A stretch of DNA of 44,091 bases from contig WELB01000094.1 in assembly GCA_009602725.1 (NCBI GenBank), positions 280,879-324,969 on the forward strand, in the 5' to 3' direction. Each line of letters starts with the position of its first letter. Within the stretch, counting starts at the first letter, position 1. Source of the DNA: Spirogloea muscicola (Eukaryota; Streptophyta; Zygnematophyceae; Spirogloeales; Spirogloeaceae). Made by a program: the position numbers and the translations under genes. Below are positions 1 through 20,086 of the stretch, one piece after another. Below the pieces are notes generated by a model that worked only from the letters and a program-made list of their open reading frames with translations, ran no database searches and had not been told where the DNA came from.

Positions 1-213
1 GCCCTCGCTGCTGCCTCTGGCTCTGGCCAGGGGACCCACTTCCAGGAGCCCAGCATCTCTGATCTGCGGCTGCTTAGCAGGGGTTACTGAGTGTCTCGTA
101 GCAGCTCTGTTTCTGTTACTTAGCGCTTCCCCTGGCCCCCTTCTCGTACTCTGTTCATTCTTTTTCGGGCTGGTTGTTCCAGCCCCTATTCTCAATGGGC
201 GAGCACTTTCTTC
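1..213 (+). mobile_element. LINE-A 3' end, truncated by the window edge
   Basis: The first 90 bases encode the last residues of the LINE-A ORF, ending SDLRLLSRGY with stop at 88-90, the same C-terminus as the long copy at 6114-8313. The 3' UTR follows and contains a perfect stem-loop at 167-185 (GGGCTGG, five-base loop, CCAGCCC). It then has AATGGGCGAGC and terminates in CTTTCTTC at 206-213. The copy at 18926-19183 is nearly identical over this whole stretch, so both are young. Confidence 0.85.
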
Positions 214-840
214 TTAATGGAAGGGCGCTCCGCAGAGAGCGAAGAGAAGAAGGCCATGGCTGTGAAAGAAAAATAGAGGAGGGCACCTTGTCCGTTCCAC
301 TTGGCTGGCCTTTTGCAGAGCCAGCCCTGAGAAGCCGGACTCTGAAGAGCAGCTTCTTCTTGAAAAAAATTTCTTTCTTCAAAGAAAGGGGCCAGCGCCC
401 TGGTGGGACCAAAGGTGAAAGTCTGTCACAGAATGGGCCGCAGCGGGTGGAATTGGGAGTACCCATCGAGAAGAATGTTTTCTCCTGCAGAACTCCTATT
501 CTTGATGTAGCGACAAAGACATGCGGCCCCCAAGGAGACAGGGCGGCATGGAGACCGGAACTGCGGAGAGCATGGGAACTGGAGAATCACGTGCTTCGGG
601 GGCGCGCCTTGGCTGGCGGCGCATGCGCGGCGTGCCTCGGGCGACGGCGAGGCCGCTCCGGGGGGACGTTGGACCAGGCCCCGCCCGCGCCGCGGATCGC
701 GCCGAGGCGCACTGCCGGGATCTGGCGGCGGCGTGCCCGCCATGGCCGCCGGCCTGTCGCGCCGGCCTTATGCCTCCTGCGCAAGCCACGGCCATTCTCT
801 GGCGTCCGTGTTTATGGGTCCTTCTGAAACTGGCCTCTTA
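214..840. other. GC-rich segment between LINE tails, no gene assigned
   Basis: Overlapping open frames exist on both strands, mainly because 520-790 is very GC-rich. None shows a recognisable domain, and none is long or coherent enough to call. The segment is bordered by LINE-A tail sequence on the left and by LINE tail remnants from about 880 on the right. It may be captured host DNA or the 5' part of an unseen element. Confidence 0.4.
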
Positions 841-1637
841 CTAAGCGATACTCCTACATGGTCCTTGCTTTAGTCATATCTGTCGGCTTAAACGCTTTTC
901 TGGCCCCTTCGAGATCTGTTCAATCTATTATTGGCCTGGCCAGTAATCGCCCTTTACTGGAAGAGTCTTTCTTCTTTCAGCCGGAGACTAGTTGATCTGA
1001 CCTGCGGCTGCTCAACAGGAAGTATTGAGCACCCAGTGGCCACTTGGACCGCTGCGTGCTCTAACGCTTTTTTGGCCCCTTCGGACATTGATCAATTCCT
1101 TTCCTGGCCATGCTATGGCTGCGGCTTCCGGGTCTCGGTAGAGTGCCGCTTTTCCTGCTCCGAGTTACTCTGATCTGCTGTTGCTCACACGTGGATGCTG
1201 AGCATCCATCTGCATCTCCCTCTGCACCGTCTCGCAATTTGTAGTGTAGTCCTTTTTCGACACTTCTTTCTTTGGCTTTGGACATTGTGCATTCTTTTTG
1301 GGTTGGCTTTGTCAATCTGGCCGCGCTTCCTATCTTTGCCAGCCCCTCTTCTCGATGGGCGAGCTCTTCTCTCTTTCCTGGCATGGCCAACCACAGCCAT
1401 CGCCCTGGAAGAGTCTTTCTTCTCTCAGCAGGTTTGGGCCCCTTCGACCCTTGTCAATGTTTTCGGGATGGCTGTCCACAGCCCTCGCCCAATTTGGGTG
1501 AGCCACTTCTTAGAGGGCCGCTGGTCACATTGGAAAAGCCGTTTCTTTCCTCTTCTGCTCCTTCCGGCCCTCTCAGACCTTCCCAATTGCTCGACCTGCT
1601 AGCCAGGCTTGCGCAGCATGTTCCGCAGGCGGGGTGA
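841..1637 (+). mobile_element. Cluster of nested LINE 3' tails (subfamily C)
   Basis: Several partial copies follow one another. The repeating order is an ORF end like SDLRLL, then GGCCCCTTCG, then a GGCTGGC...CAGCC stem, then GGAAGAGTCTTTCTTC. Clear tails lie at about 900-978, 1068-1140 and 1436-1530. The segment 1160-1330 is the closest local paralogue of the empty target of the insertion at 6114-8313: the run from CTGTTGCTCACACGTGG through CATCTGCATCTCCCTCTGC is uninterrupted here. All copies are 5'-truncated and fragmentary. Confidence 0.7.
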
Positions 1638-2235
1638 GCAGGTTTACTTCAACGCCACTGGCTCGTAAGCCCAGGTCTACCGAGCGCCCATCAGGGCTGG
1701 CATTCCACAGACAATTGCCCCTGTATGACAGAGCAATCTCTTTCTTAGGGCTGGCCGCATTTGTGGCTTGGCTGGTGAGGAAAAAACAAAAAGAGAAACC
1801 AAAGAGAAACCCAGAAAACAAACGGAAAATTCGCCCCCTGCTGGGATGAGCTTGTTTCACTCTGACAGCCATCTCCTCTCCCGCGATGACCGTCATCTTT
1901 CTGCGCAAGCGGGCCAGCCGCGTGCGGCACGCTGCGGCGTGGCAAGAAAGGTGGGGCCCTGCCGCCATGGGTGTCCCCGTGGCGTCGCTTGCGCCGGCTC
2001 TGCACTGTGGGCGAGGCGCGGCGCCGTGAGGGCCACGACGAGCGGCGAGCGCCCTCGGTGCGCTCCAGCCATCCTGGTGCCGGGCTCGCCAGCCAAAACG
2101 GCATATACTGGTTGCCCCATTTCCTGCCATTTCGCCAAGGTGGTTCGACGCAATTTATGTTGGGGGGTGGTTGCCCCTGGACTCAGACTCTTTCCTCTAT
2201 GGGCGCGCAGTGTCCTCGCGGCTGCTGACTAGGGG
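1638..2235. other. Non-repetitive insert between LINE tails, no gene assigned
   Basis: The left half holds an A-rich stretch (about 1775-1830); the right half (about 1890-2110) is GC-rich. Minus-strand frames of up to 185 codons cross it, but no domain is recognisable. It is flanked on both sides by LINE debris, so it may belong to an unrecognised element or be a stray piece of host sequence. Confidence 0.35.
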
Positions 2236-4511
2236 GATACTGAATAACCAACTTCGTGGTTCTTGCTTGATACTTTCAGCCTTCCCCGGCCCTTCCGGAC
2301 TATGTCCATTTGTTTCGGCTAGCTTTTCACAGCTCCCGCCCCTTTCTGATGAGCTTATTTCTCTCCCCTTGGCCTTTATCAGATCCTGTTCGTGTCTTTG
2401 GGCTGGCCTCTCACAATTAATGCCTTAAGGTGGAAAAGAAGGGCCTCTCACAGGAACTCGTCCATTCTTTTTCGGGCTGGCTTTCACAGCTCTCGTCTTA
2501 CCCTAGAAGAGAGCTATTTCTTCTTGGCTGGCCTGTCGCGCCCATCCAACCGCCTCTTGGGAGTGCTTCTTCCCCTCCACCCTACACGTCCACATCCACT
2601 TCCCCGCCACAGCCACTTCATTTACCACAGCCCTCGCATTCTTTTGAAAGAGCTGTTTCTTCTTGGGCTGGCCTGTCGCAGCCATCCCGCCACCTCTTGA
2701 TTCTGCTTCTTCATCCTATACCTCCGCCGCCACCTCGCAACAGTGCATGATGCGCTAGGAACGTATCCCGAGTGGTCACCTTTCGTACTCGCCTTCAAAG
2801 GACCTTGTCCAACCCTTGGGGTTGACCTCTTACAGAAGAAAGGAAGACGGGCTCGCCCATAGAGGATAGAAGATGGAAAAGGCCAGCCCAAAGGATGAAC
2901 AAAGTGCGAGGAGGGGCCAGGAGTAGCACTAAGAGAAGAGAAGTGGCTCTACGAAGGAGAAGGCCGAGGGCTGTAAAAGGCCAGTCCAAGAAAAATGGAC
3001 AAGTTGCAAAGGGCCGAAAGCCATAAACATGACAGCTTTGCAAGTGGCTGGATCGAGTGGGAGCTCAATGAACCTTAAGTCAGCAGCCTCAGGTCGGCTT
3101 ACAGCTGGAAAATAGTCACCCCCCACGGATATTCAGAAGCAGCAGCCCAAGTGCGGCCTGCCCGCAAATGCACTGCATGAGCTTGGGACCGCCAAAATAA
3201 GAGCCGAATGCGGATCACTTAGGCATGCGACTCAACCGCACTGAAGCCGACACACTTGCTGTCCTTGACGACAGTTGATTGCCCGCCGTGTACCGCCGTT
3301 TAAGCTGCTGCAGGAGGTTTCACAGACTGCCAAATGCCTCGTGCACACCCATAACCAGCGCCACAATCGATTTGTCAGCAGGGTGGTCCACTTAATTCCG
3401 CTCATTATCGTCCCCCGCAGCCCTCGCCCACGGAAGAGCTTACATTGGCTTTTGACTTTTCTTTCACTCGTCAACTATTGCTCTTTCGTGAATATCTCTC
3501 ATCTTTCCGGGCTGCCTTTCACAGCCATGGCCCCCCTGCGGAGGAGCTTCTTGTGAAAGGTAGGCCAATCTCTAGTTCGGGCAGAAGCTAGTGCCAAAAG
3601 CGGGGTTACACGAAAAGCAGCCCTATGCTAATGGCCTAAGGTATAAGTGGTCGTTAGTACCCGCGAGTGAGCACATACGAATCCGACGGGCTAACTTAGG
3701 GAACCGGAGCACCGCGCGCCTTCTCTCTTAGAAAGGCTTCTACTCGTGCTTTTCTGAACCTTGTTCATGAATGGCCTTCCACATCCATCGACCCCTTTGG
3801 AAAGAACGTCTTAAGAGAGAAGAAAGTAAGCTTTACCCCATGAGGGAGGCGGTAAGAGAAGGCAGTAGCTGGGAAAGGCCAGCCCAGAAGAGATGGAGAG
3901 GGCTCAGGGAAGCCTTAACGTGGAAGCGCAAAGCGCTCAGCAAGCGTCTATCGCAGATGGCCTCTTAGTGAACTCTTGTCAGCAGCGGCAACTTGGGAAT
4001 TGCACATCCGACACCCGTGCTCTTGTCATCCTCCCCTTTCCCTCCCTACTTCTTTACATGCTCTGAGGCCTGGCAACTGATAGCCACTACCCTGTGTAAA
4101 ATTTCTATATGTAAGGGACCCCCTTCAATACATTTTCTGCTAGCAAACACTTGTTTGCTAGATTTGTCTTGTCATTGTGGAAATCGTCCATTCTCTTTTG
4201 GGCTAGCCATTCACAGCCAAGCCTTCTCTGTAAACAGCATTTGCATACCTGTTGAGTCTCCTGCATTACTTTGATTCTCTTTCGTTCTCCTCTAGTCCAA
4301 TGTCTTCTGTGGCTGCTTTTTGCAGCCCTCGCCCCTCGGAAGAGCGCTTCATAGTCTTTACCTAGACTTCTTCTAAGGCTATTTTGTTGTCATAGACCCC
4401 CTTCAATTGCGTGTTTCATTCTAGTGGATTTCTCTTTTTCTTCTCACAGAGTGTACTGCCTTGCTTTTGCGTCCCTTTCAATGAATGCGCATCACGCGCC
4501 ACAAGCCTTAA
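2236..4511. mobile_element. LINE tail debris in both orientations
   Basis: Plus-oriented tails with the GGCTGGC...CACAGCC stem and a purine-rich GAAGAG box occur near 2290-2370, 2465-2520, 2640-2700, 3495-3556, 3760-3815, 4190-4230 and 4310-4350. Minus-oriented ones lie near 2810-2990 (for example GGGCTCGCCCATAGAGG) and 3865-3900. Between them are short unique stretches without a supportable gene. No copy retains more than a few ORF codons, so this is an old accumulation. Confidence 0.6.
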
Positions 4512-5028
4512 TTTGATGTGGTTGTGACGGAGACGTACAAGGATTCAGCATCGATCCACATTGCTGGACACTTACTGGGAAGTGCAGAGCAACGAAAGCT
4601 GCAGCACTACTCTTACCACCCCCGTAGCGATCACCTCCTACCAGCCGCAAATGCACCCTTTGGCTTCATGGATTCTCCTTTTCATACCCTACTTGAAAAT
4701 ATCGCAACTCTAGGATATACACAACGTGAGGATATGCTTGCAGCCGAGTTAGGCATGCCGGCAGCCCTTCTGTCGTGTTTGCATTGTCGTGTGTCAGCCT
4801 GTTTGCAACGAGCAGGATAATGGCTTTGCAATGGAAAAGTTTGTCGAGCCTTAGCTGGTGGACAAGGGCTTGTCAACTGCCTTCCAGTATTCGGGCATCG
4901 ATTAGCGACCTCTACTTGCTGACTCGTGGTTACTGAGCTTGTCAGCTTAGCAGCAGGTAATGTACACCTGTCAATGTGCTTGCCATTGTACTTGGCCACT
5001 CAGGCCTCCATCACTCAATAGACACTCC
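4512..5028 (+). mobile_element. LINE-B 3' half-copy
   Basis: The frame from 4518 begins inside the endonuclease-like domain (VVVTETYK, matching VVVTEAYK of the copy at 13294) and runs into a C-terminal block (LSCLHCRVSACLQRAG). It then shifts frame and ends at a stop at 4933-4935 preceded by LLTRGY. The 3' UTR has GTACTTGGCC-ACTCA-GGCC at about 4987-5007 and ends near CACTCC (5023-5028). This is a 5'-truncated and frameshifted remnant. The family name LINE-B is used only in this annotation. Confidence 0.75.
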
Positions 5029-6113
5029 GTTCTCTGTTGTCTTCTCTTCTAGCTCGCTTCCGCACCAATGGCACCCGAACCGGCACGCGGTAGCCAGTCG
5101 GCGGGCTGCCGGTCAGCAGAACGACCACCCACAGCTTTTCTTGTGACTGGCTTTTTAACAGGCACTCGCTACCCAGAGACTAGTTTCTCTGACCTGCGGC
5201 TGCTCAATAAGAGAGAGACGCTTACAGGAGGGCGGTGGCTGGGAGAATAAGGGCTCGCCCATTGAGAAGAGGGGCTGGCCAAGCCAGCCCAAGAAGAATG
5301 GAAAAAGGAGAGGCCCGCCCAGAGAAAGAAATGAACGAAGTTTGAAGGGGCCAGGGAAAGCGCTAAAAGACAGGGCTCAATAGGAGATATTAAGCACCAA
5401 ATGGCCACTTGAGTCGCTGTGTGCGATGACGCTTTTCTGGGCCCTTCGCCTTTCGGTCACTCTTTTACTGGGCTCGCCAATCACAGCCACCGCCCCCTAC
5501 CGGAAGAGTTTATCTCTTTTAAACAGCCACTCTTCTTCAAATGGCCCACGCCTTGCATCTGCGTGCTGGCCGTGCTCTCGCTGCGGCCACCGGCTTTCGT
5601 CGTTGCTGCTTCCTGGTCTCGTCTGCCTGCATCATTTCCAGCTTCGAGCTACTCTGACCTGATGTTGCTCACCCGCGGGTATGAGAAAGAAAGTGCTCGC
5701 CCATTGAGAATAGGGGCTGGAAAAGCCAGCCCAAAAAAGAATGAACAGAGTACGAGAAGGGGGCCAGGGGAAGCGCTAAGAAACAGAAACAAAGCAGCTA
5801 CGAATCACTCAGTAACCTCTGCTAAGCAGCCGCAGGTCGGAGATGCTAGGCTCGTTGAAGTGGTTCCCCTGGCCAGAGCCAGAGGCAGCAGCGAGGGCTC
5901 TGCTCATTCTTCATTCATTCTTTTTCGGGCTGGTTGTTCCAGCCCCTATTCTCAATGGGCGAGCACTTTCTTCTGCTTGAGCTTCCTGTGTTTCCGCCGT
6001 GTCTAGCTGTCTAGATGCCTAGCTGTGTGTTTCCCTTGTGTTCGGCACCTGTTGTGGCTCTTTACTCTGATCTGCTGTTGCTCACACGTGGATACTGAGC
6101 AGCCATCTGCATC
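5029..6113. mobile_element. LINE-A/C fragments, including an inverted pair
   Basis: A plus-strand tail occupies about 5380-5530. At 5541-5690 is a plus-strand ORF end (ALHLRAGRALAAATG, then SDLMLLTRGY). It is interrupted by a minus-oriented LINE-A 3' fragment (about 5688-5905), directly followed by a plus-oriented LINE-A tail with the GGGCTGG/CCAGCCC stem at 5927-5945. Positions 6060-6113 are the left half of the older tail into which the long copy inserted; they end with the target duplication CTGCATC (6107-6113). Confidence 0.65.
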
Positions 6114-8313
6114 GAAGAAAGGGCTCGCCCATTGAGGATAGGGGCTGGACAAGCCAGCCCAAAAAAGAATGAACAAAGAACGAGAAGGGGGCCAGAGGAA
6201 GCCAGAGGAAGCGCTAAGAAACCAAAGCACACAAAGAAAGAAAGCAGCTACAAATTACTCAGTAACCCCTGCTAAGCAGCCGCAAATCAGAGAGGCTAGG
6301 GTCCTGGAAGTGGGTCCCCTGGACAGAGCCAGAGGCAGCAGCGAGGGCTCTCCCGGCACGAAGGTGCAGCGCACGGGCCATGGACCTCTGCAGCGAGACG
6401 GCCAAGCGCATGCGATACACTTGCGCCAGCGACCCGGCTGCAGGAAAGTCTACCGGTTCACCATGGAAGCGACGGGCGATTGCGTGGCGGGCGAGCTGGT
6501 TAAGTAGCTCAAGCCACCGAGCGCCCAGTGCCCCATGGATGTCAATTGCCAACGGGAAGAACTCGTCTTCCGGTGGATGGTCGGCGTACTTGATCTCTTT
6601 TGCCCGAGCGGCGCAGGCGACCGCATACCCAGCCTTGGTGGCAGACTGGGCTGGGTGGGAGCGGTCAAATGCGTCGGTAGTCACCACATCCAGAAGCAGA
6701 CGTGGCCCGCCGGCCTGTGGGGTGGCCACCAGGTCGACGCGACGAGCGTGGAGACCGTCGGCCCTGGCCTGGAGCGGCATGACGCCGGAGTGCTCCGCTG
6801 CCACCGCGAAGCCAGCCTCCACCAGGATGCTGTGCATCGCGTCCCGGAGGCGGTCGTGGGCCGCCGTCCTCTCGCCGCCATGGGAACAGCGCAGGACGTG
6901 AGCAGCCAGCTCGCCAGGCTTGGCCCCTCGCTCGCCACACTGGCATTGACGCACGCCCTGGAGGCATGGAGGCGGCAGCCCCAGGAGCCGGTGGACGGCA
7001 GTGCGAAACACCTCATCTGGGAGGGTCAGGGCGTCAGTGATGGGGAGTGCCTGGAGCCACGCCGCTGCCCCCGGGGAGGAGGCCGAATGTAGTCTCGCGC
7101 GCCCGCGCAGGTCAGCCTCAGGAAGCTGCAGCACGGCGGTGGTGTAGGCGGCCTTGTCGACGACGGCCGCGAAGCGCGCTTGGACGCGCAGGTCAGCGGT
7201 GTGCGCGAGGTGCGCAAAGGAGACCGCCTGGCCGGCCATGTCGGGGTGCGCCGCGAGCAGCTCCTGGTGGGCGGTGCGAAGCGCCACCTGGAACGGCAGC
7301 GCGCCTTTGTCCACCTCCACCACCGCCTGCTCCAGTGCACGCCGGCCATGGACCATGAAGCGCTGAGCCACGGAGGCGGCAGTCTGCGCCCAGCTGCCGA
7401 GGTATGCAGCCCGGCATGAGCGGACGAGCGGGCGCAGGCCGAGACCCCCGTGGCTGATGGGTAGCGCCGCCTGGTGGATAGCGGCTGGCGACTGGGGGAA
7501 GCCCTGGTGGCGGACCAGGGCCGCCAAGCTCGCCACCATGCCCGCGTCGAAAGTCGCGTACGCCGCCAATGCCTCTGGGGACGGCGGGGTGGCCCGCGTC
7601 AAGTACTGGGGCCGCTGCCCGATGGCCTTGGTCAGCATGGCCAAGGACAGCTGCATATCCTCCAGCTCGGGGAGCCGGGCCGCGGGCTGAAGGTGCTCCG
7701 CGAGGCGGGCTCGCAGCTGCCCCTCCACGAAGGCTGGCGTGCCGATGGGGACTCCCAGGAGGGTGAAGCCGTCTGCCGGAGTCCGGCAGCCCGGGGGCAG
7801 CGCCAGGGTGGGTAGGATCACGCCAGGGGACCAAGCCGCGCACTTCGCCGGCCGGATGGTCAGGCCGAGGGTGGCCAGCTGCTGCGTGAAAGTAACGAAG
7901 GCCGCCGCCACGTCTTCCGGAGGGCCGACGATGGTGGTGTCGTCCGCGTAGGTGGGAAGAAGGACTCCTGGGTGGGCCGCAGCGGTAGCCTGCAGAGCCC
8001 GGTTGTGCGCGAGCGCAAAGAAGAAGCCGGCGAGGGGGTCCCCTTGCCGCGTGCCCGAGCGGGACTGCAGGACCTCCACCTGATCACCCCCTGTCCACCA
8101 GAGGAGGTCGCTGGGCTGACCGTACCCCAAGCGGAAAAAGGGGACCAGGGAGGGGAAGGAGGCCCGGAGCTCCTCCGCAATGCAGGCGCGCTCCACGGTG
8201 TTGAAGGCGTTTGCCACGTCGACGGCAAGCACCAGCCAGCTCGGGTGCTGGTCCAAGGTTGCACGGACCCCGTGGACGACGGCCTCACCCCCACTCCGCA
8301 GCCCCGCGCCGTA
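6114..8313 (-). mobile_element. LINE-A, long young copy with target-site duplication
   Basis: This 2.2-kb, 5'-truncated non-LTR retrotransposon is read on the minus strand. Its 3' end is at 6114 (complement of CTTTCTTC); the 3' UTR carries the stem-loop at 6142-6160, and the ORF stop is at 6259-6261. The same 7 bases, CTGCATC, lie immediately outside both ends (6107-6113 and 8314-8320). Joining the flanks recreates the sequence seen uninterrupted near 1208-1230. There is no poly(A) tail. The exact duplication, the nested position and the open ORF all indicate recent insertion by target-primed reverse transcription. Confidence 0.9.
6259..8313 (-). CDS. LINE reverse transcriptase with zinc knuckle and restriction-like endonuclease
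   Basis: The open frame starts at 8466, but only codons from about 8313 down belong to the element. The first ~50 codons are antisense of the tail it inserted into. The reverse transcriptase palm is complete: AVDVANAFN (first catalytic Asp), RQGDPLAGFFF, and catalytic YADD about 175 residues into the frame, followed by a thumb-like region with HGGLGLRPL. Near residue 505 there is C-x-C-x12-H-x3-C (CQCGE...HVLRC). About 70 residues later comes RRVDLVATP with LLLDVV 14 residues on, matching the D-x12-14-D/E core of PD-(D/E)XK restriction-like endonucleases. Zinc knuckle plus this nuclease downstream of the RT is the layout of R2/R4/NeSL-type LINEs rather than APE-type. The N-terminus, including any DNA-binding domain, is missing. 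The frame is intact to its stop. Confidence 0.88.
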   Translation of the reverse strand, partial: YGAGLRSGGEAVVHGVRATLDQHPSWLVLAVDVANAFNTVERACIAEELRASFPSLVPFFRLGYGQPSDLLWWTGGDQVEVLQSRSGTRQGDPLAGFFFALAHNRALQATAAAHPGVLLPTYADDTTIVGPPEDVAAAFVTFTQQLATLGLTIRPAKCAAWSPGVILPTLALPPGCRTPADGFTLLGVPIGTPAFVEGQLRARLAEHLQPAARLPELEDMQLSLAMLTKAIGQRPQYLTRATPPSPEALAAYATFDAGMVASLAALVRHQGFPQSPAAIHQAALPISHGGLGLRPLVRSCRAAYLGSWAQTAASVAQRFMVHGRRALEQAVVEVDKGALPFQVALRTAHQELLAAHPDMAGQAVSFAHLAHTADLRVQARFAAVVDKAAYTTAVLQLPEADLRGRARLHSASSPGAAAWLQALPITDALTLPDEVFRTAVHRLLGLPPPCLQGVRQCQCGERGAKPGELAAHVLRCSHGGERTAAHDRLRDAMHSILVEAGFAVAAEHSGVMPLQARADGLHARRVDLVATPQAGGPRLLLDVVTTDAFDRSHPAQSATKAGYAVACAARAKEIKYADHPPEDEFFPLAIDIHGALGARWLELLNQLARHAIARRFHGEPVDFPAAGSLAQVYRMRLAVSLQRSMARALHLRAGRALAAASGSVQGTHFQDPSLSDLRLLSRGY

Positions 8314-9000
8314 CTGCATCTCCCTCTGCACCATCTTGCACTTTGTAGTGTAGTCCTTTTTCAGCACCTCTTTCTTTGGCTTTGAACATTGTCCATTCTT
8401 TTTGGGTTGGCTTTGCCAGCCCCTCTTCTCAATGGGCGAGCACCTTCTTCTTTGGCTTTTGTCCATTCTTTTTTGGCTGGCTTCTGCCAGCCCCTCTTCT
8501 CAATGGGCGAGCCCATTTACTTTTCTATGGGCGAGCTCCTCTCTTTTGGCCGCGCTTCTTCTTTCGTCAGGGGGATAGTTTCCCGGCAGCTAGTCTGTCG
8601 GATTTGAGGCTCCTCACTCGTAACTACTGAGGTTTGCATCCTCCCTCCTTTCTGAAATAGCATCTTCAGGCCCCTTCGTAGCTGCTAAGCGTTTTTCGGC
8701 CCCTCCGTCATTTGGCCCCTTCGCACCTTTGTCAATTCGGGCTGGCATTTCACAGGAAAAGCGCGGCCGAATTGACTGGTGGCTGGGAGGAGCCAGCCCA
8801 AAAGGAATGGACAATGTCAAAAGGAGCCGAATGGCACAAAAAGCAGAAGACTTTCACAGCCCTTGCCCCCATTAGGAGTGCCACTTCTCAAAAGTGGCGA
8901 AGGCCAGCCCACAGGTTAAAAGAGCCAAAAGGCGCTTAAAGTACACAGCTATGCACGAACTACCGCAGATGAGAGCTTAAGTTACCACGAGTAATCTCAG
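8314..9000 (+). mobile_element. Right half of the interrupted tail and further LINE tails
   Basis: The target duplication (8314-8320) is followed by the continuation of the older plus-strand tail, with stem-loop GGGTTGG/CCAGCCC at 8404-8422 and AATGGGCGAGC. A second, nearly tandem stem with the same box follows by about 8510. An ORF-end remnant (CGGATTTGAGGCTCC, stop near 8628-8630) and subfamily C tails follow near 8690-8760. A minus-oriented tail lies near 8780-8835. Confidence 0.65.
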
Positions 9001-9420
9001 CACCAGCATTCTTCTTCTCCGGCTGCGGCGGCCGAGACGACGGGAGGGAAAAGGCGCGCGCCGCTTTGCGCTAAAAACGGTGATGCGACGACGGCCCCGG
9101 GCAGCCACTTTCCGTGCGCCGGCGGCTGGTCCCGCTGCTCCAGCAACCCCCGCGACGTTGCGGACGTGGCCGCGCCACTGGGCCCGCACGGGACGTCGGG
9201 GGCGGGCCCCACCGAGACTCATCTCGCCCATTCCCCCGAAGAGATCGGCACCTTTGACGTCAAGGCTCCTTAGCGCAGCGACGGCCTCAGGGAGCTCAGC
9301 CGCGTCGCGAGCGCCGAACTGTATCCAGCCATGAGGAAGGGGCGGACGTCGGGCACGTTGGGCGCCTGACAGTGGGCGGCCGTCGAGGGGCCCTCGAGGA
9401 GCGTCGTTTCGAAGACTAAG
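9001..9420. other. GC-rich island inside the LINE zone, possible gene fragment
   Basis: This very GC-rich block lies between LINE tails on both sides. On the minus strand a frame from 9519 to 8977 stays open and contains a balanced stretch (ELPEAVAALRSLDVKGADLF) unlike repeat-derived sequence. No domain is recognised, and no clear start or splice sites could be chosen. It may be a host exon carried in or surrounded by retroelements. Confidence 0.3.
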
Positions 9421-9789
9421 CACGCTCAAGTGGCGGTAATAAAGCTCGGAAGGCCAGTTTCGCTCTAAACATAGCGACGGGACCAACAGTCCACCGGATA
9501 TAGGAAGAAGCCCTTTCACATGAAGGGCGAGAGGGCTGTGAAAGTTTTTGCACAGGGACTTGCCGGCGTCCGAAAGACCCGATCTTCGTATTTCCGGCAG
9601 ATCGGATTTGCGGCTCCTTACTCTTACTTATTAGTCGGTACATCCTACCCCAGTTCTGAGATAGCGCTTTTGGCCCCTTCGTAGTTTGGCCCCTTCGAAC
9701 CTTGTCAATGCTTTTCGGGCTGGCTTATCACAGCCCTTTGCCCCATTTGGAGATGCCTCTTCTTATATGCTGAGCGGATAGGGTGACCC
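9421..9789 (+). mobile_element. LINE tails, subfamily C
   Basis: A short ORF-end remnant (GATCGGATTTGCGGCTCCTT at about 9600) is followed by two GGCCCCTTCG boxes near 9670 and 9690. A stem GGGCTGGCTTATCACAGCCC (9717-9736) and a terminal CTTCTT stretch near 9768 follow. This is the last LINE tail before the promoter region of the next gene. Confidence 0.6.
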
Positions 9790-9895
9790 CGTGCTAGATT
9801 CGGACAAGGGCCGCTGAACGACAGGGCCCGCCGGCAGGGGGGCGCCGAGCGGACAGGCGCCTGCTGCAGCCAGGAGCCTCCGTGCCGGGCGACGG

Positions 9896-9917
9896 CCACG
9901 TCACCACTGCCACGTCA
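9896..9917 (+). promoter_or_regulatory. Two ACGT-core boxes (CCACGTCA x2)
   Basis: CCACGTCA occurs at 9896-9903 and again at 9910-9917, both followed by CC/CG. ACGT-core elements are typical bZIP targets in plants and algae. They sit about 280-300 bp upstream of the TATA box at 10197. The same octamer occurs three times upstream of VPS24 (24128-24197). Binding is inferred from sequence only. Confidence 0.45.
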
Positions 9918-10007
9918 CCGTGGACGGTGACGGCTCCCCGCCCCCTGCCCAACCGCCGGCCGGCCGGCCGCACGACCCGGATCCGAGACGTTCGGAGCAG
10001 CGGCGGC

Positions 10008-10043
10008 CCAATGAGAGCCCGCCGCAGCTCACCAAGGCCCAAT
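10008..10043 (+). promoter_or_regulatory. Paired CCAAT boxes
   Basis: CCAAT is present at 10008-10012 (GGCCCAATGAGA) and 10039-10043 (GGCCCAATCAGA), spaced 31 bases apart and about 155-190 bases upstream of the TATA box. The shared flanks (GGCCCAAT) and the spacing of about three helical turns resemble NF-Y type elements. Confidence 0.5.
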
Positions 10044-10196
10044 CAGAGTGTGCCGGCGCCATCGCCACGCGGCGGCCGCCGCGCGGGCCGCATGCCGCCA
10101 GGTAAAGGGAGCAGAGACTTGTCGCGGCGCGGCGGAGCGGCCGGGCTGCGATCCAGCCCGCGCCATCCACGCCCCCCCCCCCCGAGGAGGCGGCGT

Positions 10197-10204
10197 GATA
10201 TAAG
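10197..10204 (+). promoter_or_regulatory. TATA box
   Basis: GATATAAG stands out in otherwise GC-rich sequence. A CT-rich stretch (10220-10260), a likely transcription start region, follows about 25-60 bases downstream. The ATG of the next gene is at 10409, so the 5' UTR would be about 170-180 bases. Confidence 0.6.
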
Positions 10205-10408
10205 ACCCCCCCCGACACACCTCCGACCACCTATCCCTCTCACTCTCTCGCTCCCCTAGCTCCCTCACAGCCGCCGCCGCCTCGGTCAGCGCTGAGCCAA
10301 GCCAGCCGCCCCCTCTTCCGCCCGCCACCCATCTCAGCTTCGTCTCCGCGCCTCCGCTACACCAGGCGCAGCCGAGGCCCGGAGCCGCAGCCAGCCAGCC
10401 AGGCGGCC

Positions 10409-11309
10409 ATGGCGCTGGAGATTGCCCGCGTGTACGCCGAGATCCTGGCCAGGATGCCTCCCGCGCCCGAGTGCCAGGCGCCGTACGCCATCCCGTCGCC
10501 CACGGCGTGGCGGAGCTTCAATCCGCCGCGCGGCGCCTCCCGCCGCAGCAGCTTCTCCGACGGCAACTTCTCGGACGCCTCGGAGGAGGACGACCTCGCC
10601 GAGACGGCCGAGCGCGTCGCAATGTCCATGCTGTCCGAGCTGCCGGCAGGCGGCCTCAGCCGCACCAGCTCCTCCTCCGACTTCTCCGCATCCTCCTCGT
10701 CCTTCACCAGCCCGTCCTGCTCCCAGGGCTCCTCCCCTACATCGGTACTGGCTGGAAAGGGCGCCCAGGCCTGGGACCTTCTGTATGCTTCTGAGACCCT
10801 CGCTGGGACTACTGGAAAGCGGAGGCCCAAGCAGAAGAAGCAGGCGCAGCACCAGCAGCAGGCCGCAAGGGCGGCACCTCCCCTTGCCACCACCTCCACT
10901 GCCGCGACCCAGGAGTTGAGCGGGACTGGGGTCTTCCTGCCCAAGGCTGGCACTCCTGCAAAGCCTGCCAGCAAGAAGCCTGGTGAGTCTGCAGCTGCAG
11001 CCTCTTATGATGCCAGTCTATCTCTACTTCTGAATTGCTGCTGGTCTCACAGTATGCATCCTCCGGTATATGCGCTCTGAGGCTGACCCAGCTTGCAACT
11101 TGTTATGTGCAGTATGCCCTGTGCTCCTGCCTGCCCACATTGTCGAGGCGCTCAAGCTCAATGTCAAGGGCGATGAAGTGTACGCAGCACCCCGCAATGC
11201 CACATCCTCTGCCACCATGACCTTCAAGGTCATCGACACCAAGTCAAGGACTGCTCGTGCCAAGCAAGCACGGAAGACCACAGGTCTAATCAAGTCCGCA
11301 AGCTTCTGA
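10409..11309 (+). CDS. Unknown Ser/Ala-rich protein, two exons, 256 residues
   Basis: The start ATG (10409) sits in GCGGCCATGGCG, a good eukaryotic context, below a TATA/CCAAT promoter. Exon 1 is 10409-10982 and exon 2 is 11113-11309. The intron begins GTGAGT and ends GTGCAG, and phases agree (1/1), giving 256 residues with stop at 11307-11309. I do not recognise a family. Visible features are: a conserved-looking N-terminus (MALEIARVYAEILARMP); serine clusters with acidic residues (FSDGNFSDASEEDD) that look phosphorylatable; a basic Lys/Gln patch (KRRPKQKKQAQHQQQ); an Ala/Pro/Lys region; and a compact last exon (HIVEALKLNVKGDEV). No signal peptide or membrane segment is seen. It is probably a mostly disordered nuclear or cytoplasmic protein; function is unknown. 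Confidence 0.7.
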
Positions 11310-12650
11310 CTCAAGTGCCCTTGCAGCAGCCTTGACCCTAGTCAATCTAGCAAATTCATTGCACCCAGCCCTCGTTGAGCTTGTGGTGTTAGAGAACAAG
11401 CTCTGGCCATTCCAGAGCAGCCTCTTGATTACCAGTGTATGGATCGGGAGATGCTTGCATGGATCTGTTGCCCTTCCTTCTTAGAGAAGGCTGGATCCAG
11501 CAAGATTCTTCCTACCCTTTGCATAGGAGTATGTAACCATCAGGCACAAGCTAGGCTTCCTGAAAAATCAGGCGCAGTGAATAATAAGTACCACTACTAT
11601 GGCTCCACTGCCCAGACTACACAGTCCTTCCTGCTAGTCTTTTTAGACAGCTTAAGGACAATTAGGCTTAGATGTACATCTCATCGCCTGCAAGGCTTGG
11701 CAAGCAGGTTGATGCAAGTTACCAGTATAACTGACATCAAACTTTTTTACAAAATATCAGCTGGTCTGCCCGAATGTAAGATTCCATGTTGTCCTTGCTC
11801 ACACAACAGCTGGCCAATTTGGTTCTCCCTACTATATCCCTCTTAAGCATGCGGTGAATCTTCCAGTGTGAAGTGTGAATCTTCTATCTCATTGTAGTCC
11901 CACGTCACAAGGTCTCCAGACTTTCACTGACAAGCAAAGTGACAGTCTTGTGACGGCCCTGAAGTACAACTACTAAAAGTTCTGGCTCAGTCCTGATGGA
12001 AGTAGACAGCCAAATACATCATTGACATCCGACTGGACAACAGTGGCTTGGCCCACCTTGCTCGGCGGCCTGTCATGCCGTACATGTTGAATGCTATATC
12101 ACGTCGATTAAACAGATTTGTAGGAACTCAGGTGAAATGTTGGAGTCTGCGTGACAGACAGCGCAATACATTGTGTAAAACTAAAACACGCGACATGCCT
12201 ACTGTTGCAGATAGGTCAACCCCAAAACCCTAAACCCTAAATCTATAACCTGTAACCCTGAAAAGATAGCATAGGAAAGGTATGACGAGAATCCGAGCTT
12301 GTGATGACTGATTGCAAGTTAGCAGAACCTTACTTGTGCAAGATTTTGGCCAGCCAGGCCTGTACCAAGCTTGTTCTGCATAATAGTCCAAGGTAAGCAG
12401 TCTGCTGACATCCCAACATATAGTGGCATTGTCACAGGTGTTTCCCCAGCACAGGACAGACCAAGAGAAGCTGATACTCTGATTCCATAAATCTCACTCC
12501 AGAGACAAGTCAACGCATGATGTGTTCTGACAGACCTCTACTGCAGAAGCATGAAGTGGTGCAACTTTGTGCGCCAAATTTATCAGAGAAGGTCTTGGGC
12601 ACTGCATCGATGGCTGGTTAACCACTGCACTTGATGAAGCCAAAGATAAG
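11310..12650. other. 3' flank and intergenic DNA
   Basis: No gene with recognisable content is visible. A plus frame at 11439-11846 is open but low in coding character and has no recognisable domain. Telomere-like CCCTAAA units lie at about 12227-12242. The sequence is AT-richer than the flanking genes and shows no LINE tails. Confidence 0.5.
12222..12262. repeat. Interstitial telomere-type repeat (CCCTAAA)
   Basis: Two adjacent CCCTAAA units preceded by CCAAAA, with degenerate derivatives (CTATAACC, TGTAACCCTG) downstream. CCCTAAA/TTTAGGG is the telomere unit of land plants and of several green algae such as Chlorella. A second short array lies at 43337-43383. Confidence 0.7.
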
Positions 12651-12658
12651 CCCCTCAA

Positions 12659-12790
12659 TCATAGGTGGAGAAAGCCCACAGGAGCACGTCGGAAAGCCTC
12701 GACAAACCGTGGGTAACCGGCTAGGCCGAGAAAGCTCTTGAAAGCACGTCGAGAAGTGTGATTGCCTCGACGAGCCTTGAGGAACGGGCC
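12659..12790 (-). pseudogene. Ty3/gypsy-like pol scrap
   Basis: The minus frame reads FKSFLGLAGYPRFVEAF. This resembles the LRxFLGLAxYYRRFI signature at the reverse transcriptase / RNase H boundary of LTR-retrotransposon polyproteins. Only this motif is convincing; the frame (13000-12659) upstream of it is not recognisable as pol and stops soon after the motif. The assignment rests on one signature and is tentative. Confidence 0.4.
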
Positions 12791-13204
12791 GGGCAGTGGT
12801 GGGGAATTGTAGGTAGTGGTAGCAGTGAGTCTCTGGCTACACTGGCCTAGAGACCTGGGGAACCAAATGGGCCAGATGGCCCAACCCAACAAACTTTGTA
12901 ATGCTTTATCTGACCAAGCATAAGGGGTGTGGAGGGCCAGGGCAGAGGAGTCAACTCGGTTTGGTAAAGGCGAAGATGGTGGGGATAAGAAACACGGCAC
13001 TCAATGCAATGAAGCTCAAGACGAGCGACAGTATGTCCTTGATTATTGCCCTTCGCTATTTCTTGATGTGTCCTAATTCACTATTTCCGAATGGGTCCTG
13101 ATGCACTATTTCCCTCCTCTACGCCCTGTTCCTGCACTAGGACGCCCAGGCAGCCGCTGTCAGGGGGGGTGGCTATGAAAGGAGAGTTGCAGCAAACAGG
13201 ATGT

Positions 13205-14000
13205 TCGTGTACTTGAAACAAAGAAAGGCCCAATGGCCAAGTACAAGGCAAGCACATCTAGAGACGTACATCACCTACAGCAGATTGACCAGCTCAATAA
13301 CCACGGGTCAAAACATGAAAGCCGCTACTCGATGCCTGAATACTACATGGCAGATACGAAGCCCTTCTACCACCAACTAGAGCTCGCCCAGCTTTCTGGT
13401 GCAAAGCATTAGCCTGAGCACGCTGCAAACAGGCCGAAACGCGTCGGCGCAAGAACGACAAACATGCAGCTGGCAGGCCCATCTCAGCCGGAAACACATC
13501 TGCACGTCGTGCATAGCCTAGATTGGCAATATTCTGAATGAGAGTGTGGAAACGAGGACCTAGACATCCAAAGATGTCGACTGCCGCTGGCAGGACTGAT
13601 CGCATTGGGGGTAATTGGAGTAGTGCTGCATCTTTCTTTGTTCTGCACCGCCCACTGTGTGGCCAGCGATGTGCGTCGATGCTGGACCTTTATAGGCCTC
13701 CGTAACAACAACATCGATCAATGCCCGTACTTTTCCACCAGATTGCACGCCTACAATGTCAAGTGTGCGACGATGATGACGTCCCGGGGCATCCGTGGTG
13801 ATAGGCATGATGCTGTTCACTTCCACAACGGCACGGTATCCAGCGTTGCGCATCAAACCCGCCAGGGCATCGCGGAGGAGGTTGTGGATGCCCACCACTT
13901 CTGGTCCAGTAGGGCATCGCAGCATGTTAGTGACCAGCAGCACTACTACGACTACCCCACCTTCTATTAGCGCAAACGACATCTTCTGGTAGCTTACGTT
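13205..14000 (-). mobile_element. LINE-B copy, 5'-truncated and frameshifted
   Basis: On the minus strand, 14000-13560 encodes a half-zinc motif end (MLRCPTGPE) and an amphipathic block (LLRDALAGLMRNAGYRAVVE). The endonuclease core follows (RRTLDIVGVQ, then LIDVVVTEAYK 14 residues on), the same order and spacing as LINE-A. The frame then shifts, and 13605-13294 encodes the C-terminal block (LRRRVSACLQRAQANALHQK) ending LTRGY. The 3' UTR contains GTACTTGGCC-ATT-GGGCC (complement at 13228-13245). LINE-A and LINE-B are therefore divergent families of one architecture. Confidence 0.8.
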
Positions 14001-14760
14001 CTCGTTGGAATGCTTTGCTGGAAGTTCTGCACAACGTGAGGATGTGCTTTCGGCTGAGATGGGCTCGCCGGCGGTACAATCTGTCATTCTTGCGTCGTCG
14101 TGTGTCACATCAATGACAGCAAGCTCAGCTCAACCCTTGCACCAAAAAGCTGGGCGTGATCCACTTTATGGCATAAAGAATAGCGCGTCCTTATTGACTG
14201 GTGGCTGTGAGAGGCCAGCCCAAAATAACTGGACAAGGTCTGGAGGGGCCGAATGGCGTTAAAAACGATATAAAAATTGCGACGCCGGCAGCAAGGGGCC
14301 GCTCAATACCTAGTCAGTAGATGAAATCGGAATAGCTAGCAGGCGGATAGACGTCGCCCTGACGGAAGCCGGAGGCTGCAGCCAAGGCGCGGCCTGCACG
14401 CAAGTGAACCGTGAATGCCAGGGAGCGCTGCAAGGAGATAGCCAAGCGCATCCTGAAATGCTTGGAGTTTGTCGATTAGCATCTGGGATTACTTGGCGCC
14501 CTCTACATTGCTTTTGGGTCTCGTTGGGGTGCCTCTTTTCCAGCTGACAACATACTCCGACTTGCGGCTGCTGACTCTGCATTATGAAGCTCCTATTCGC
14601 TGTAGCTCTTGCATAGCTGTCTTGTTTTGGCGCCTTCTGGCCCTTTGGACCTTGCTCAATCTCTTTGGGCTGGCCTTTCACAGCCACTACCTTGGATCGG
14701 AAGAGCTGTCTTCTCTTCGTGCTGACCCACGGTTAGTAAGCGGGTCGGCCTAAGTCAGAC
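14001..14760. mobile_element. Small LINE-B and LINE-C fragments
   Basis: Plus-strand LINE-B fragment at about 14028-14150 (SAQREDVLSAEMGSPA, then HQKAGRD). A minus-oriented tail at 14190-14265 (GAGAGGCCAGCCC). A plus-oriented tail at about 14470-14740 with an ORF-end remnant (TCCGACTTGCGGCTGCTGAC) and stem GGGCTGGCCTTTCACAGCC at 14667-14685. Positions 14760-15170 show neither a gene nor further tails. Confidence 0.55.
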
Positions 14761-15170
14761 ATCTGAGGAAGCTGCGCTTTTCATCCATAGCAGCTCAGCA
14801 TGCACTGTGACTTGAGTCTGACTACACGGAAGCTACGCTCCACATCCATCTCGGCTCTAAGGGCCCTTACCTCCGGGACGTCTTTCCCATTGTAATCTCC
14901 GTGAGCTCCCTTCTGCCTTTCCTTCTGTCGCGCCTGCGCCCCTCCTCAGTGACGTCCCTCCCTTCTCCTCCGTCCCACCTTCCTTCTACCTGACAGACCC
15001 TGTGGCACTGCTTTCTGTTTGGCACTGCAGGTCTTCATGATGCCACTTTGAGAGGTCACCAAGCACCCAGCTGACCTTATCAGCGAATGTGCCGCCCATC
15101 TTGAGCCTTCTTTACAAGATCCAGGACTGGGCAAGCTCGACTTGAGATGCAAAACATGCTTTTCATGGCC

Positions 15171-18100
15171 TTACACTTTATTGATGGGGCTCGGAGGCTT
15201 AGTACGCCCGAGCATGTCAATATCTGGCACATACCCGTCATTGAGGGCCCCTGTCCGAAGGTCCGTCACAATCGTGTGACAGGTATTGTTCTTGGAGCTG
15301 ATGCCGCGCACGTGCTTGATGTGCAGGACTTCCAGGCTGACATGATAATTATATGCATCACGCTTGAGCCAGCCACCTGCAAGCTTGACAGCATAATGTA
15401 TCCCTGCCAGCACCACCTCCCCAGTCCTGGCCATCCACTTCTGACGGTGCTCCGTCCTGTTGATATGCCGATAGGGCATGCGCTGTGCCAAGATGGGGTT
15501 GGCTATGTGCGAGGTGGCATTCTCAGGCAGGCACCAGCGCACTTCAAATCTGTAGTCGTACATTCGGAAGTACTTGCGGTCCTTAAATTGCTCCACGATT
15601 GTGTCTGCAGCCGCCAAGCTGCCTCGAGATGGTCAGGCAACACAAGGGGCCTGGATTGCTGCGGCACACATCCATCCTGGTGAGGTAGGTTAGCACTGTA
15701 TGGAGAAGGGGGGAGGGGTTTGAGGCCCTCGCCAAGAGTCTTGGGGGGCACCGGGAAGAGGTACCCGTCGAGGTTGCAGAAGAGGGTCCACTCTGACAAA
15801 CCCCTAGTCCTGTATATGCAGTCATTCAAGTACACTTGCTGGCTGTGATACCATGCCGGATACTTGGGCTCCTCCCTCACGTCCACCAATGTCATGCGGC
15901 CACCCTCAACATATCTCTGTACATGTCGAGCAGCACAGCCCACCTCTCGACACAGTGCCGCCAACTGACTTGTTTGCAGGATACGATGGTGACCCTGACC
16001 TTGACCATGCATGCTCGCACAGCAAGCTTGGCTGTGCGAGCGCAGGGCACTTCCAAGCCCTCCAATTTGTTAGTTGGCACCCTTGAATGCCACCAAGTCA
16101 GTCTAGCCGCAGCTAGCCACATACGGCTACTTGTGGCCATACTGTGTGCTACTTGCTGCATCCACGCCAGTGTCTGATCCTTGGGGCATCACCAAAAGCA
16201 TGGTACTTGCCTGATACGAACGCAGGAGGTCTGTTGTCATGCTGCCTTCTGCCAGGTATAATACATAGTGGACGCTGTTGTGCATCAGGTAATTGTGATA
16301 CCGTAGCCATTCCGCCACATTTGAGGCATGGATGACGCCATGCATGGGAGGTCCGCAGTTGGAGTATTTGAAGGCTGGAGGAGCCCTGCGACCACAAGCG
16401 ATAGATGATGACGGGCTCAGCAACCTGGTGAGACCAAAGCTCTTGCTAGGGCGTGCCTCACCCACACAAAGAGGTGCCCGCCCCTGCCACCGCACTGTGC
16501 ACGGCGGTAATCACTGCGGAGCGTGCCTGCTGGTGCCCGCCTGTGTCGGGGTTTGCGACACATTGAAAGGTTTCTCCATAGACCAGCTTGTACTCCAGTT
16601 CTTGGTCGTCCTCCTTCCCGTTGAACTGTGGAGCAAAGCAAGCACAGGTGTCTCGGAACACAGATTTCTGGATCATCTATTTGCCTCATACTGCAGGGCC
16701 TCACTGTGAGCAGCGCGCCGCAAATCCTCCGCAAAGGATTAAGTGGGCTCAAAAGCTTCGATGCATTATGAGAAGTACGAGCAGGCAATTTGCCTCTGCT
16801 CAATCTGCTGGGCAGTGATGTCAGCTCACAAGCTGGCTCGCATGGCCATGCCTTTGCGACCGCGAGGGCTAGAGCAGGGAGGTCACACATTGAGGTCATG
16901 GAGTGCAAGGTACAGCTGCCCTCCTTTAGAGGCGGCAGTGTCATCTGCTGAGAAGTTGCACTATATAACCGGCGCCTCATATGGCATATCCATACCATTG
17001 CCTGCTCAGTGCGCCATATAAGACAGTGAGAGGGGCGACTGCGAGCCTGTGCACAGGAGGTTGTGTCATGCAATGGATGCAACAAGGGTGCAACATGGAC
17101 GACAAAGAGGCTGCAGTAGGTCGCAAGTGGCTGGCATGGCATGTTTCCTCGTGTACTGAATCGCACACTGCCATCTGCATGGCCAAATTGAGCCTGAGCG
17201 AATCAAGCCAGGATGACACTCAGCAACCCAGCAACCAGTGAGACAAGCTGGCCACTTGCCTAGCAGCATATGGACTGCAGTTCCCCTGACGCCAAGATCG
17301 CGCAGGTACACTTCGTCTACCTGCAGAAGCAACTTAATGCATCAGCGTGCTCACTCGAGTAGCACTTCATGGCAAGGAGCCTGCCTGCAGAGGCACGTTG
17401 GATAATTCACAAAGATGAAAGTCCTGCTTGTCCTGCTTGATGAGATGCCTGGCGCCGCTCGATGAGAAAGAAAAGATAGAGCCATCCTCACTCGGGCCTC
17501 GGCCTTTTCTTTCAGTCTGGAATGAGGCGAGTGCTCAGCCCACGCCGCCTACATATCTGCAGGTAGGCACCTGCAACACGCTGCTGCTGCATGTTGCCGA
17601 GGCAAAGAGGATTGCTGGACACGAACGGGCTCCATGGAGTACGGCGCCCAGATGCAGAAGTGGGCTGGATCCCCAGATGCTTCCTGCTTGCGTCCACCAA
17701 GCCAGCAGAGGCCACCGCAGCAAAGTAGGAGCCGAGGTCTGTGAGCTGATGAAATGGGGTGCCCGGCGGCCAGCTCGGCAAGCAGCAGCCAAGTTGCAGC
17801 TGGACGTTTAGCTGCTCGCGGCTTCCGATATCAAGCTCGTCTGGGCTGCCTGTCCACAGGGACACGACAAGATTGAAACCCAGCCATTGGTCCAGTCTAC
17901 TCACCCTCAGGCTGGTCGCGCAACTCCCAATGGCAGCGAACTCGTCGGGGCCTGTCCTGTACGCGCCGAAGTGCACGTACTCTTGCGGGGCGCCTCCGCT
18001 GCGCTTCCGCATGCTGAAGGGAGCGAACTGGACGCCCGCCAAGGCGTGCCTGCTGGGCAGCCCCTCCTCGCCACCCTGACCGAGCTCCCCGCGAGCAGCG

Positions 18101-18363
18101 TCACCGGCGCCGTCGGTCTGCCATGGTCCACCTCCTCGGCCGCTGTCTGCGGCGGAGTCTGTGGCCTGCAGGGCGCCGGCGGGTGGTAGCGACAGGGCAG
18201 CTGCTGATTCGACACAGGGGTGAGCGAGGCGGGCGCAGCCGGGGCAGAGGCGTGCACGGCGGGCCCGGCCTCGGCTGGGCGAGGTGCTGTGCAGGTGTGA
18301 AGGGAGTCCAGTCACCATGCCCATGTCTGATCGCCCGCAACAGCACCCCGGAGAAGAGGGCAT
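15171..18363 (-). CDS. GT92-family glycosyltransferase, five exons
   Basis: Exons on the minus strand: 18363-17905, 16625-16462, 16385-16211, 15916-15697 and 15604-15171. Phases match at every join and the sum is 1452 bases (483 residues). Blocks typical of plant GT92 (formerly DUF23) proteins appear in order: YVHFGAYRTGPDEFAAIG; KYSNCGPPMHGV with NVAEWLRYHNYLM; QQVYLNDCIYRTRG with TLFCNLDGYLFPVP; and KWMARTGEVVLAGIHYAVKL near the end. GT92 enzymes add galactose to glycans or pectic side chains; the substrate here is unknown. The usual DxDE motif reads NLDG, so the canonical acidic residues are partly absent. The intron after exon 3 starts GC (CAG|GCAAGT). The join after 15697 is the least certain. 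The N-terminus has no clear membrane anchor, so a further upstream exon, perhaps in the gap region, is possible. Confidence 0.72.
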
Positions 18364-18557
18364 GATACAAGCTCGCGGCGAGAGAGGGGATCGGGAGCGC
18401 TGGCGCAGCGCCTGCTGCTTGTCGGGCGCGCAGGAAGGGCCCGCGGGAGGTAGGCGGGTGGGGAAGGAGGAGCTGGAGCGCCATTGCGGGCGTACGGGCG
18501 GCGGCGCATCCTCGGGCGCGGGAGGCGCGCCGGGCGGGCCGCAGCGGCGGGCGGCGC

Positions 18558-18715
18558 NNNNNNNNNNNNNNNNNNNNNNNNNNNNNNNNNNNNNNNNNNN
18601 NNNNNNNNNNNNNNNNNNNNNNNNNNNNNNNNNNNNNNNNNNNNNNNNNNNNNNNNNNNNNNNNNNNNNNNNNNNNNNNNNNNNNNNNNNNNNNNNNNNN
18701 NNNNNNNNNNNNNNN
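18558..18715. other. Assembly gap (158 N)
   Basis: A run of N inside very GC-rich sequence just upstream of the GT92 gene and just before a LINE-A tail. The missing bases may hold the GT92 promoter or first exon. Confidence 0.99.
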
Positions 18716-18925
18716 GCCGGGCGGCGCTGCGGGCGTCGTTTGCGGCCTGGTTGTGGGCCCGCGGCGAGTCGGCGCAGCGGCCGGCCGCCCGGCTGCTCCG
18801 CCCGCCCACTAGCGCGCGCGCCTCCCCGGCCCCCTCACCCCCTTCACATCCATCCTCAGTGGGCGAGCACTTTCTTCCACGAACCCCGTCTCTCCATGAC
18901 CTGAGGCTGCTTAGCAGCGCTTCCC

Positions 18926-19375
18926 CTGCAGAGGTCCATGGCCCGGGCGCTGCACCTTCGTGCCGGCAGAGCCCTCGCTGCTGCCTCTGGCTCTGGCCAG
19001 GGGACCCACTTCCAGGAGCCCAGCATCTCTGATCTGCGGCTGCTTAGCAGGGGTTACTGAGTGTCTCGTAGCAGCTTTGTTTCTGTTACTTAGCGCTTCC
19101 CCTGGCCCCCTTCTCGTACTCTGTTCATTCCATTTCGGGCTGGTTGTTCCAGCCCCTATTCTCAATGGGCGAGCACTTTCTTCCCCTGGCCCCCTTCTCG
19201 GGGCTCAAGCTCCCTCAGACCTTGTCCATTCTTTTGGGCTGGCCTTTCCCAGCCACCAGTCAATCTGGCCGCGCTTTCTCTCTTCTCGTACTCTGTTCAT
19301 TCCATTTCGGTCTGGTTGTTCCAGCCCCTATTCTCAATGGGCGAGCACTTTCTTCTTCTTAGCAGGGGCTGCTGA
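18926..19375 (+). mobile_element. LINE-A 3' fragment plus further tails
   Basis: A 5'-truncated LINE-A copy starts within the ORF (MARALHLRAGRALAAASG), ends SDLRLLSRGY with stop at 19058-19060, and has the stem-loop at 19137-19155 and the CTTTCTTC end at 19176-19183. It is near-identical to 1-213. Two more tail copies follow to 19375, including stems near 19235-19255 and 19315-19333. A shorter tail piece with AGTGGGCGAGC precedes it at about 18846-18875. Confidence 0.8.
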
Positions 19376-19881: not shown

Positions 19882-20086
19882 TCAATCAGCCTGCTGAGCA
19901 GGGACATGAAGTTCTGCGACTCTGCTTCCCGTTGCTGTTGCTGATGCTGTAGTTGCTGTTGCTGTTGTTGCCGGTTGCTGATGCTGTAGTTGCTGTTGCA
20001 GATGCTGTTGTTGCTGTTGCATAAGCTGCTGTTGCTGTTGCTGATGCTGTTGTTGCTGTTGCAAATGTTGTTGCTGCTGTTGCTGA

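Follow-up and report, generated by a model that had tools for sequence, protein, structure and literature searches.

Long interspersed nuclear elements (LINEs) that carry a restriction-like endonuclease (RLE) are described in the literature as elements with a single open reading frame (ORF) in which a reverse transcriptase (RT) precedes a PD-(D/E)XK-like endonuclease (PMC3636483). They branch deeper than LINEs with an apurinic/apyrimidinic-type endonuclease (APE), and most RLE clades are target-specific (PMC4640811). As for green algae, the LINE clades tallied in one table are L1, RandI, and RTEX (PMC3747384), and those named in another article are L1 and Dualen (PMC8226300); no publication on an RLE-only LINE in green algae was found in a literature search, which did not cover Repbase. 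Here, a LINE copy is described that occupies positions 6114-8313 (minus strand) of a 44,091-nucleotide stretch of contig WELB01000094.1 of Spirogloea muscicola (positions 280,879 to 324,969; hereafter the window). It is very probably a recent, 5′-truncated insertion of an R2-type RLE LINE, in which no APE was found, made by target-primed reverse transcription (TPRT) into the 3′ untranslated region (UTR) of a sister subfamily.

The heptamer CTGCATC was found directly outside both ends of the element (6107-6113 and 8314-8320), in the junction sequence and in flank alignments, as reported in a preliminary description of the window made from the sequence alone. When the flanks were joined with a single CTGCATC, they aligned to positions 1165-1314 (plus strand) over 150 nt, gap-free and at 93%, with a score of 245 as opposed to 228 when both repeats were kept. 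This second, uninterrupted H-like tail had been proposed as the empty site. A better empty site is the tail of another copy (C4:818869), which is 100% identical to 6075-6113 and 8314-8450, and in which the left and right matching pieces overlap by exactly 7 bp, CTGCATC. In the assembly (153 Mb in 471 contigs, including gaps and stretches read as N), a 27-mer across the 5′ junction and a 29-mer across the 3′ junction each had a single occurrence with up to two mismatches allowed, versus 233 exact occurrences of the uninterrupted 32-mer (114 + 119; control 0). Since each junction is unique and the uninterrupted site is present 233 times, 6114-8313 is one insertion event and not a segmental duplication, and no second copy with the same insert at the same point was found. 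The 5′ junction shows a microhomology of 3 nt (CAG), seen as alignments to longer copies that begin three bases ahead of the junction. The copy is young, with 1 mismatch in 2,199 nt to the nearest other copy.

Because the tail of C4:818869 matches both flanks across the empty site, the host is identified by alignment as a sister subfamily's 3′ UTR. This subfamily, H, and the inserted element share 66% identity in protein. Positions 6062-6113 (plus strand) correspond to the last codons and the start of the 3′ UTR of a 5′-truncated H element, and 8314-8450 (plus strand) to the remainder of that UTR, ending CACCTTCTTC. The preliminary description had regarded this host as an older LINE tail, a view that could not be maintained: the tail is 100% identical to that of another copy and its 32-mer is present 233 times. 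The observation as a whole was thus confirmed, whereas its interpretation held in part: a young RLE LINE, the nesting, the absence of poly(A) and the existence of long open copies stood, but the older host did not, and the targeting of relatives, discussed below, is doubtful.

The inserted copy, assigned to subfamily A, is 2,200 bp long. Its ORF, P0001 (6262-8313, minus strand), begins within the RT because the copy is 5′-truncated, and stays open for 684 codons, through YADD and the zinc knuckle to RRVDLVATPQAGGPRLLLDVV as had been described, up to a TGA stop at 6259-6261. On the same strand it comprises the RT (Pfam RVT_1, E 3.1e-13; 7747-8262) with the motif YADD (7939-7950; YADD or FADD in nine family members compared), the knuckle C-x-C-x12-H-x3-C (6886-6945), and a putative RLE core (6514-6858) with H486, D527-x14-D542, K572-x2-K575-Y576, and G-x2-W. 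The 3′ UTR (6114-6258, minus strand) extends for 145 nt from the stop codon to the end, CTTTCTTC, which carries no poly(A), in agreement with the other family copies. The base following the 3′ end was A in 8 of 110 flanks, a count that is only partly independent evidence since the ends were located by the tail pattern. The last 67 nt fold into a predicted two-tier hairpin (z -2.9), a shape recovered in three of four folded tails (z -2.9, -4.5, and -3.3; the fourth, z -0.7).

On its domain order, the family qualifies as an RLE-encoding LINE in the broad R2-group sense, that is, a single ORF with an RT followed by a putative PD-(D/E)XK-like nuclease. The published pattern of these elements comprises a knuckle CX2-3CX7-8HX4C and the residues H, D..D, KX2KY, and GXW (PMC5678591). 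When nine family members were compared with these residues, D-x14-D, whose conservation had been among the checks suggested earlier, was invariant in all nine, as were KX2K and the histidine with which the first helix opens. In a search of solved structures (23 PDB sequences listed at E<=10), the RT domain of the family profile matched only R2 proteins (9nl3, 9dou, and 9nl2; E 1.4e-7 to 2.4e-6). The ratio of nonsynonymous to synonymous substitution rates in eight pairs was 0.13-0.19 for the whole frame and 0.10-0.23 for the RLE, which indicates purifying selection; the values come from a plain Nei-Gojobori estimate, in which comparisons across subfamilies approach saturation. Several points speak against this classification. 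The tyrosine of KX2KY is Y in six of the nine members and H in three; GXW is present just as G-x2-W; and the knuckle reads CX1CX12HX3C in all nine, versus the published spacing, which would be a departure from the RLE LINE pattern and not an exclusion. A Pfam scan of P0001 gave the RT and no endonuclease family, and an AlphaFold model built for the RLE region from one sequence was of no use (mean predicted local distance difference test score 39.1), so that the nuclease assignment rests on motifs. As for the tail hairpin, no covariation support was obtained and a consensus tail fold was unsupported.

A search of the same genome gave at least 68 family matches, at least 31 of them covering residues 1-684; these are lower bounds, with 65 of 17,323 first-look candidates scored. 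Several long copies have one stop-to-stop open frame of about 1,330-1,360 aa and show, in order, two C2H2-like motifs, a proline-rich stretch, the RT, the knuckle, and the RLE. The two N-terminal C2H2-like motifs were recognized by eye, and their Pfam hits were weak (E 0.019-0.4, below cut-offs). In one ORF (L019, C295), repeats with an offset of 147 nt (49 codons) have expanded the N-terminal proline-rich part, and the frame reaches 1,558 aa. At least four subfamily groups, 66-72% alike in protein, were distinguished. The tails of three of them (A/B, E/K, and H) align across the last ~65 nt, and the G/F tails also have the GGGCTGG hairpin but a different ending. For the exact 23-nt tail of a sister subfamily, 1,697 occurrences were counted, 845 in forward and 852 in reverse orientation, against none for the control. 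In 31 kb of random sequence (16 loci drawn, 5 wholly N, leaving 11), family DNA made up 17.7%, and in the remainder of the window 11.6%; the random sample was patchy, with family DNA in 5 of the 11 loci, in one of them over just 104 bases. As a rough estimate, the family is a large part of the genome, about 12-18% of the sampled sequence. One scan of viral contigs gave no relative.

All 110 3′ flanks examined were mutually different, and no fixed target was seen. The first target base was T in 76 of the 110 3′ junctions, with T frequent through base 5; among the 34 junctions whose first 150 nt contain no family DNA, the share was 82%, against a background of 22%. Words of at least 6 nt shared between the two ends were detected in 31 of 58 copies, whereas 200 re-pairings gave 7.8 on average and 16 at most; ten of these 31 words begin with CT, five of them with CTTT, and the leading C may be the last base of the tail. 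A motif around TGGAAG, noticed by eye in several flanks, was absent from the list of enriched words and is not claimed as a target motif. The insertion can be pictured as follows. The RLE would nick a target with T as the usual first base of its sense strand, in many cases preceded by a C that may also belong to the tail; the 3′ end so released would pair with the U-rich RNA end (CUUUCUUC) and prime the RT; synthesis would end early; and the second end would be joined by a microhomology of a few bases, leaving a duplication of roughly 4-15 bp.

Compared with the R2 group (R2, R4, CRE, NeSL, HERO, and Utopia), the family is alike in its one ORF with putative C2H2-like motifs at the N-terminus, its central RT matching R2 proteins, and, toward the C-terminus, its knuckle and a putative RLE that has H, D..D, and KX2K(Y). 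It is unlike the group in that no fixed target was seen, in the C-x-C-x12-H-x3-C knuckle, in its probably green-algal host, and in duplications of roughly 4-15 bp. The R2 clade proper, which uses one 28S ribosomal DNA site, was rejected given the 110 different flanks. Utopia, reported to insert in U2 small nuclear RNA genes (PMC4640811), was also rejected, as targets vary and an Rfam scan of window positions 1-20000 found nothing. BLAG of the cockroach and HERO are likewise RLE LINEs without one fixed target (PMC7650587, PMC3636483, PMC4640811), but reside in animal hosts, and are likened here by their published description. Zepp and ZeppL of Coccomyxa and Chlamydomonas are algal LINEs known to form nested clusters (PMC3446292, PMC8226300); however, Zepp belongs to L1, ends in (A)n, and lies in centromere-like clusters, whereas this family is found on many contigs, ends CTTTCTTC, and has an RLE. 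A Zepp/L1 identity was discarded, with no APE found in two long frames and no poly(A) 3′ end.

The alternative that survives best, if still doubtful, is that the element prefers the 3′ tails of its relatives, through tail recognition or base pairing with CTTT words; the preliminary description had spoken of an element that inserts into such tails. At first look, 36 of 50 3′ flanks carried family DNA in their first 150 nt, versus 45 of 208 random pieces and 42 of 275 window pieces. The 50 flanks were obtained from 57 copies with a 3′ region, of which seven were unusable (six without a recognized end, one mostly N), and three of them (C149, C44, and C36) matched library pieces cut from themselves; C149 and C44 also match other entries, and C36, with no other match, was dropped from the 109-copy set used below. 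The window control was raised, because two library pieces (1120-1420 and 8540-8800) had been cut from the window. This early signal was weakened when random points, T-rich points, and a rule that requires both flanks were applied. With both flanks in one relative, 10 of 87 copies were nested; the corresponding figures were 56 of 600 for random points, 18 of 600 for points in the window, and 42 of 400 for TTT points. The nesting frequency is close to that of random and TTT points and above that of window points. The 10 is a lower bound, because a further nested case (C195), with a 17-nt filler and read by eye, was missed by the rule. Moreover, of the exact H-tail sites, 233 are uninterrupted and one has this insert.

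Other comparisons favor the alternative, and the first two of them leave room for some local preference. In 47 of 109 copies, family DNA sets in no more than 15 nt from the 3′ end, versus 15% of positions (controls: 82 of 600 random, 49 of 600 window, and 83 of 400 TTT points, which are if anything too high because the both-flank and random-point runs used E 1e-3 instead of 1e-4); and in 10 loci the share of family DNA drops from 38-54% over the 200 nt next to the 3′ end to 1.3% at a distance of 1.0-1.3 kb. Weighting the site model for T left the expected family share almost unchanged (from 14.9% to 15.6%). Neighboring exact tails within 500 bp were found in 10 of 95 cases, versus 0.53 expected by Poisson; CTTT words in family DNA amounted to 179 of 709, against 15% for C overall; and the 3′ flanks of four copies (L135, L154, L151, and C295) start at one TTGTAGCTGCT word of K-type tails. 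Nevertheless, part of the tail-beside-tail excess may be due to composite tails, because L179 has two consecutive tails within one duplication, which fits re-copying of the tail by the RT. A preference for same-sense insertion was also considered and rejected: adjacent tails were 25 sense and 11 antisense, but both-flank cases were 6 sense (2 in ORFs) and 4 antisense. The frequency of clean nested insertions is roughly the one expected from repeat density, and the excess lies where one side alone is recognized as a relative. A relative as host needs no special targeting, because of the share of the sampled sequence that the family covers; a preference for relatives' tails was not upheld.

Three near-full copies (C453:14242-14942, C66:680324-681024, and C135:50792-51492; L077, L083, and L087) have a common 5′ extension: ahead of the usual 5′ end lie a 173-bp spacer and, upstream, the tail of a LINE in the same sense. 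When this extension is taken together with the first ~340 nt of the element, 640 of 641 positions are equal between C453 and C66, and 677 of 677 between C66 and C135. Farther upstream, similarity to C66 is lost at one point in C453 (16 of 55 positions equal) and at another in C135 (2 of 20). This is an apparent 5′ transduction, as truncated copies of a read-through transcript would look. In addition, L014 (1270-6723) and L015 (in element sense, 1367-6817) have in common a 5,451-bp unit that is 99.98% identical, with different flanks, and the first 947 nt of this unit are a 100% inverted copy of its 3′ end, both arms ending in the LINE tail. As the flanking sequence of L015 is also inverted, a local rearrangement or misassembly is possible there. 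A broader proposal, of low probability, is that of an RLE-only green-algal lineage, distinct from Dualen, whose tails have three roles: as CTTT target, as re-copied units, and in 5′ transduction. In such a lineage, the U-rich RNA end would pair with the CTTT words of relatives, so that tails accumulate on tails; the RT would re-copy its own tail, yielding tandem and head-to-head tail units; and the tail of an upstream relative would join a read-through transcript that mobilizes a downstream full-length copy.

That the family is instead a Dualen/RandI LINE, with APE plus RLE, or a derivative that lost the APE, seems unlikely. Dualen, known from Chlamydomonas and relatives, is the RLE-bearing LINE group named for green algae, and resembles this family in its green-algal host, its RLE, and its non-poly(A) tails (PMC3747384, PMC8226300, PMC3636483). 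However, it also encodes an APE, and no APE family (Pfam, E<=1) was found in two long copies with open frames of 1,350 and 1,363 aa, in which the 5′ end seems complete, since several long copies of one subfamily start within ~20 nt of each other. Finally, segmental duplication or recombination among LINE copies, without a fresh insertion, might be suspected where related tails crowd the region, but it is already contradicted by junctions found once each, an exactly duplicated target, and 233 copies of the empty site, and is very improbable.

Further layers surround the host. On similarity, and in part by inference, positions 5977-6061 (plus strand) would belong to an outer host, a further H-like tail that seemingly received the H copy; similarity to this outer host begins at 5569-5682 and resumes near 8451-8512. 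Within it, 5687-5972 was recognized as a head-to-head pair of two family tails with their ends outward and a possible 4-bp duplication, TGAG. Elsewhere in the window, diverged RLE and RT-linker fragments (13417-13928, minus strand, and 34308-35623; roughly 30-47% identity to the protein described here, frames split) probably belong to a second RLE LINE family of this genome. Among the matches listed, opposite-strand TTTAGGG arrays meet head to head at C27:905790-906317, a junction that resembles a telomere fusion or an assembly join. Arrays of the TTTAGGG repeat, together with exons for a RuBisCO small subunit encoded in the nucleus, suggest that the genome is that of a photosynthetic eukaryote, probably a green alga.

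Taken together, 6114-8313 is a young RLE LINE insertion with a clean anatomy. The insertion is real, and its landing in a relative looks mostly like chance given the abundance of the family, the nested position being mostly what that abundance predicts. A family of this kind, abundant, active in recent times, RLE-only, and not bound to one target, would, in a genome that is probably green-algal, help to locate where RLE and APE were exchanged, and its thousands of copies would provide a source for reading target choice, priming, and the formation of 5′ ends.

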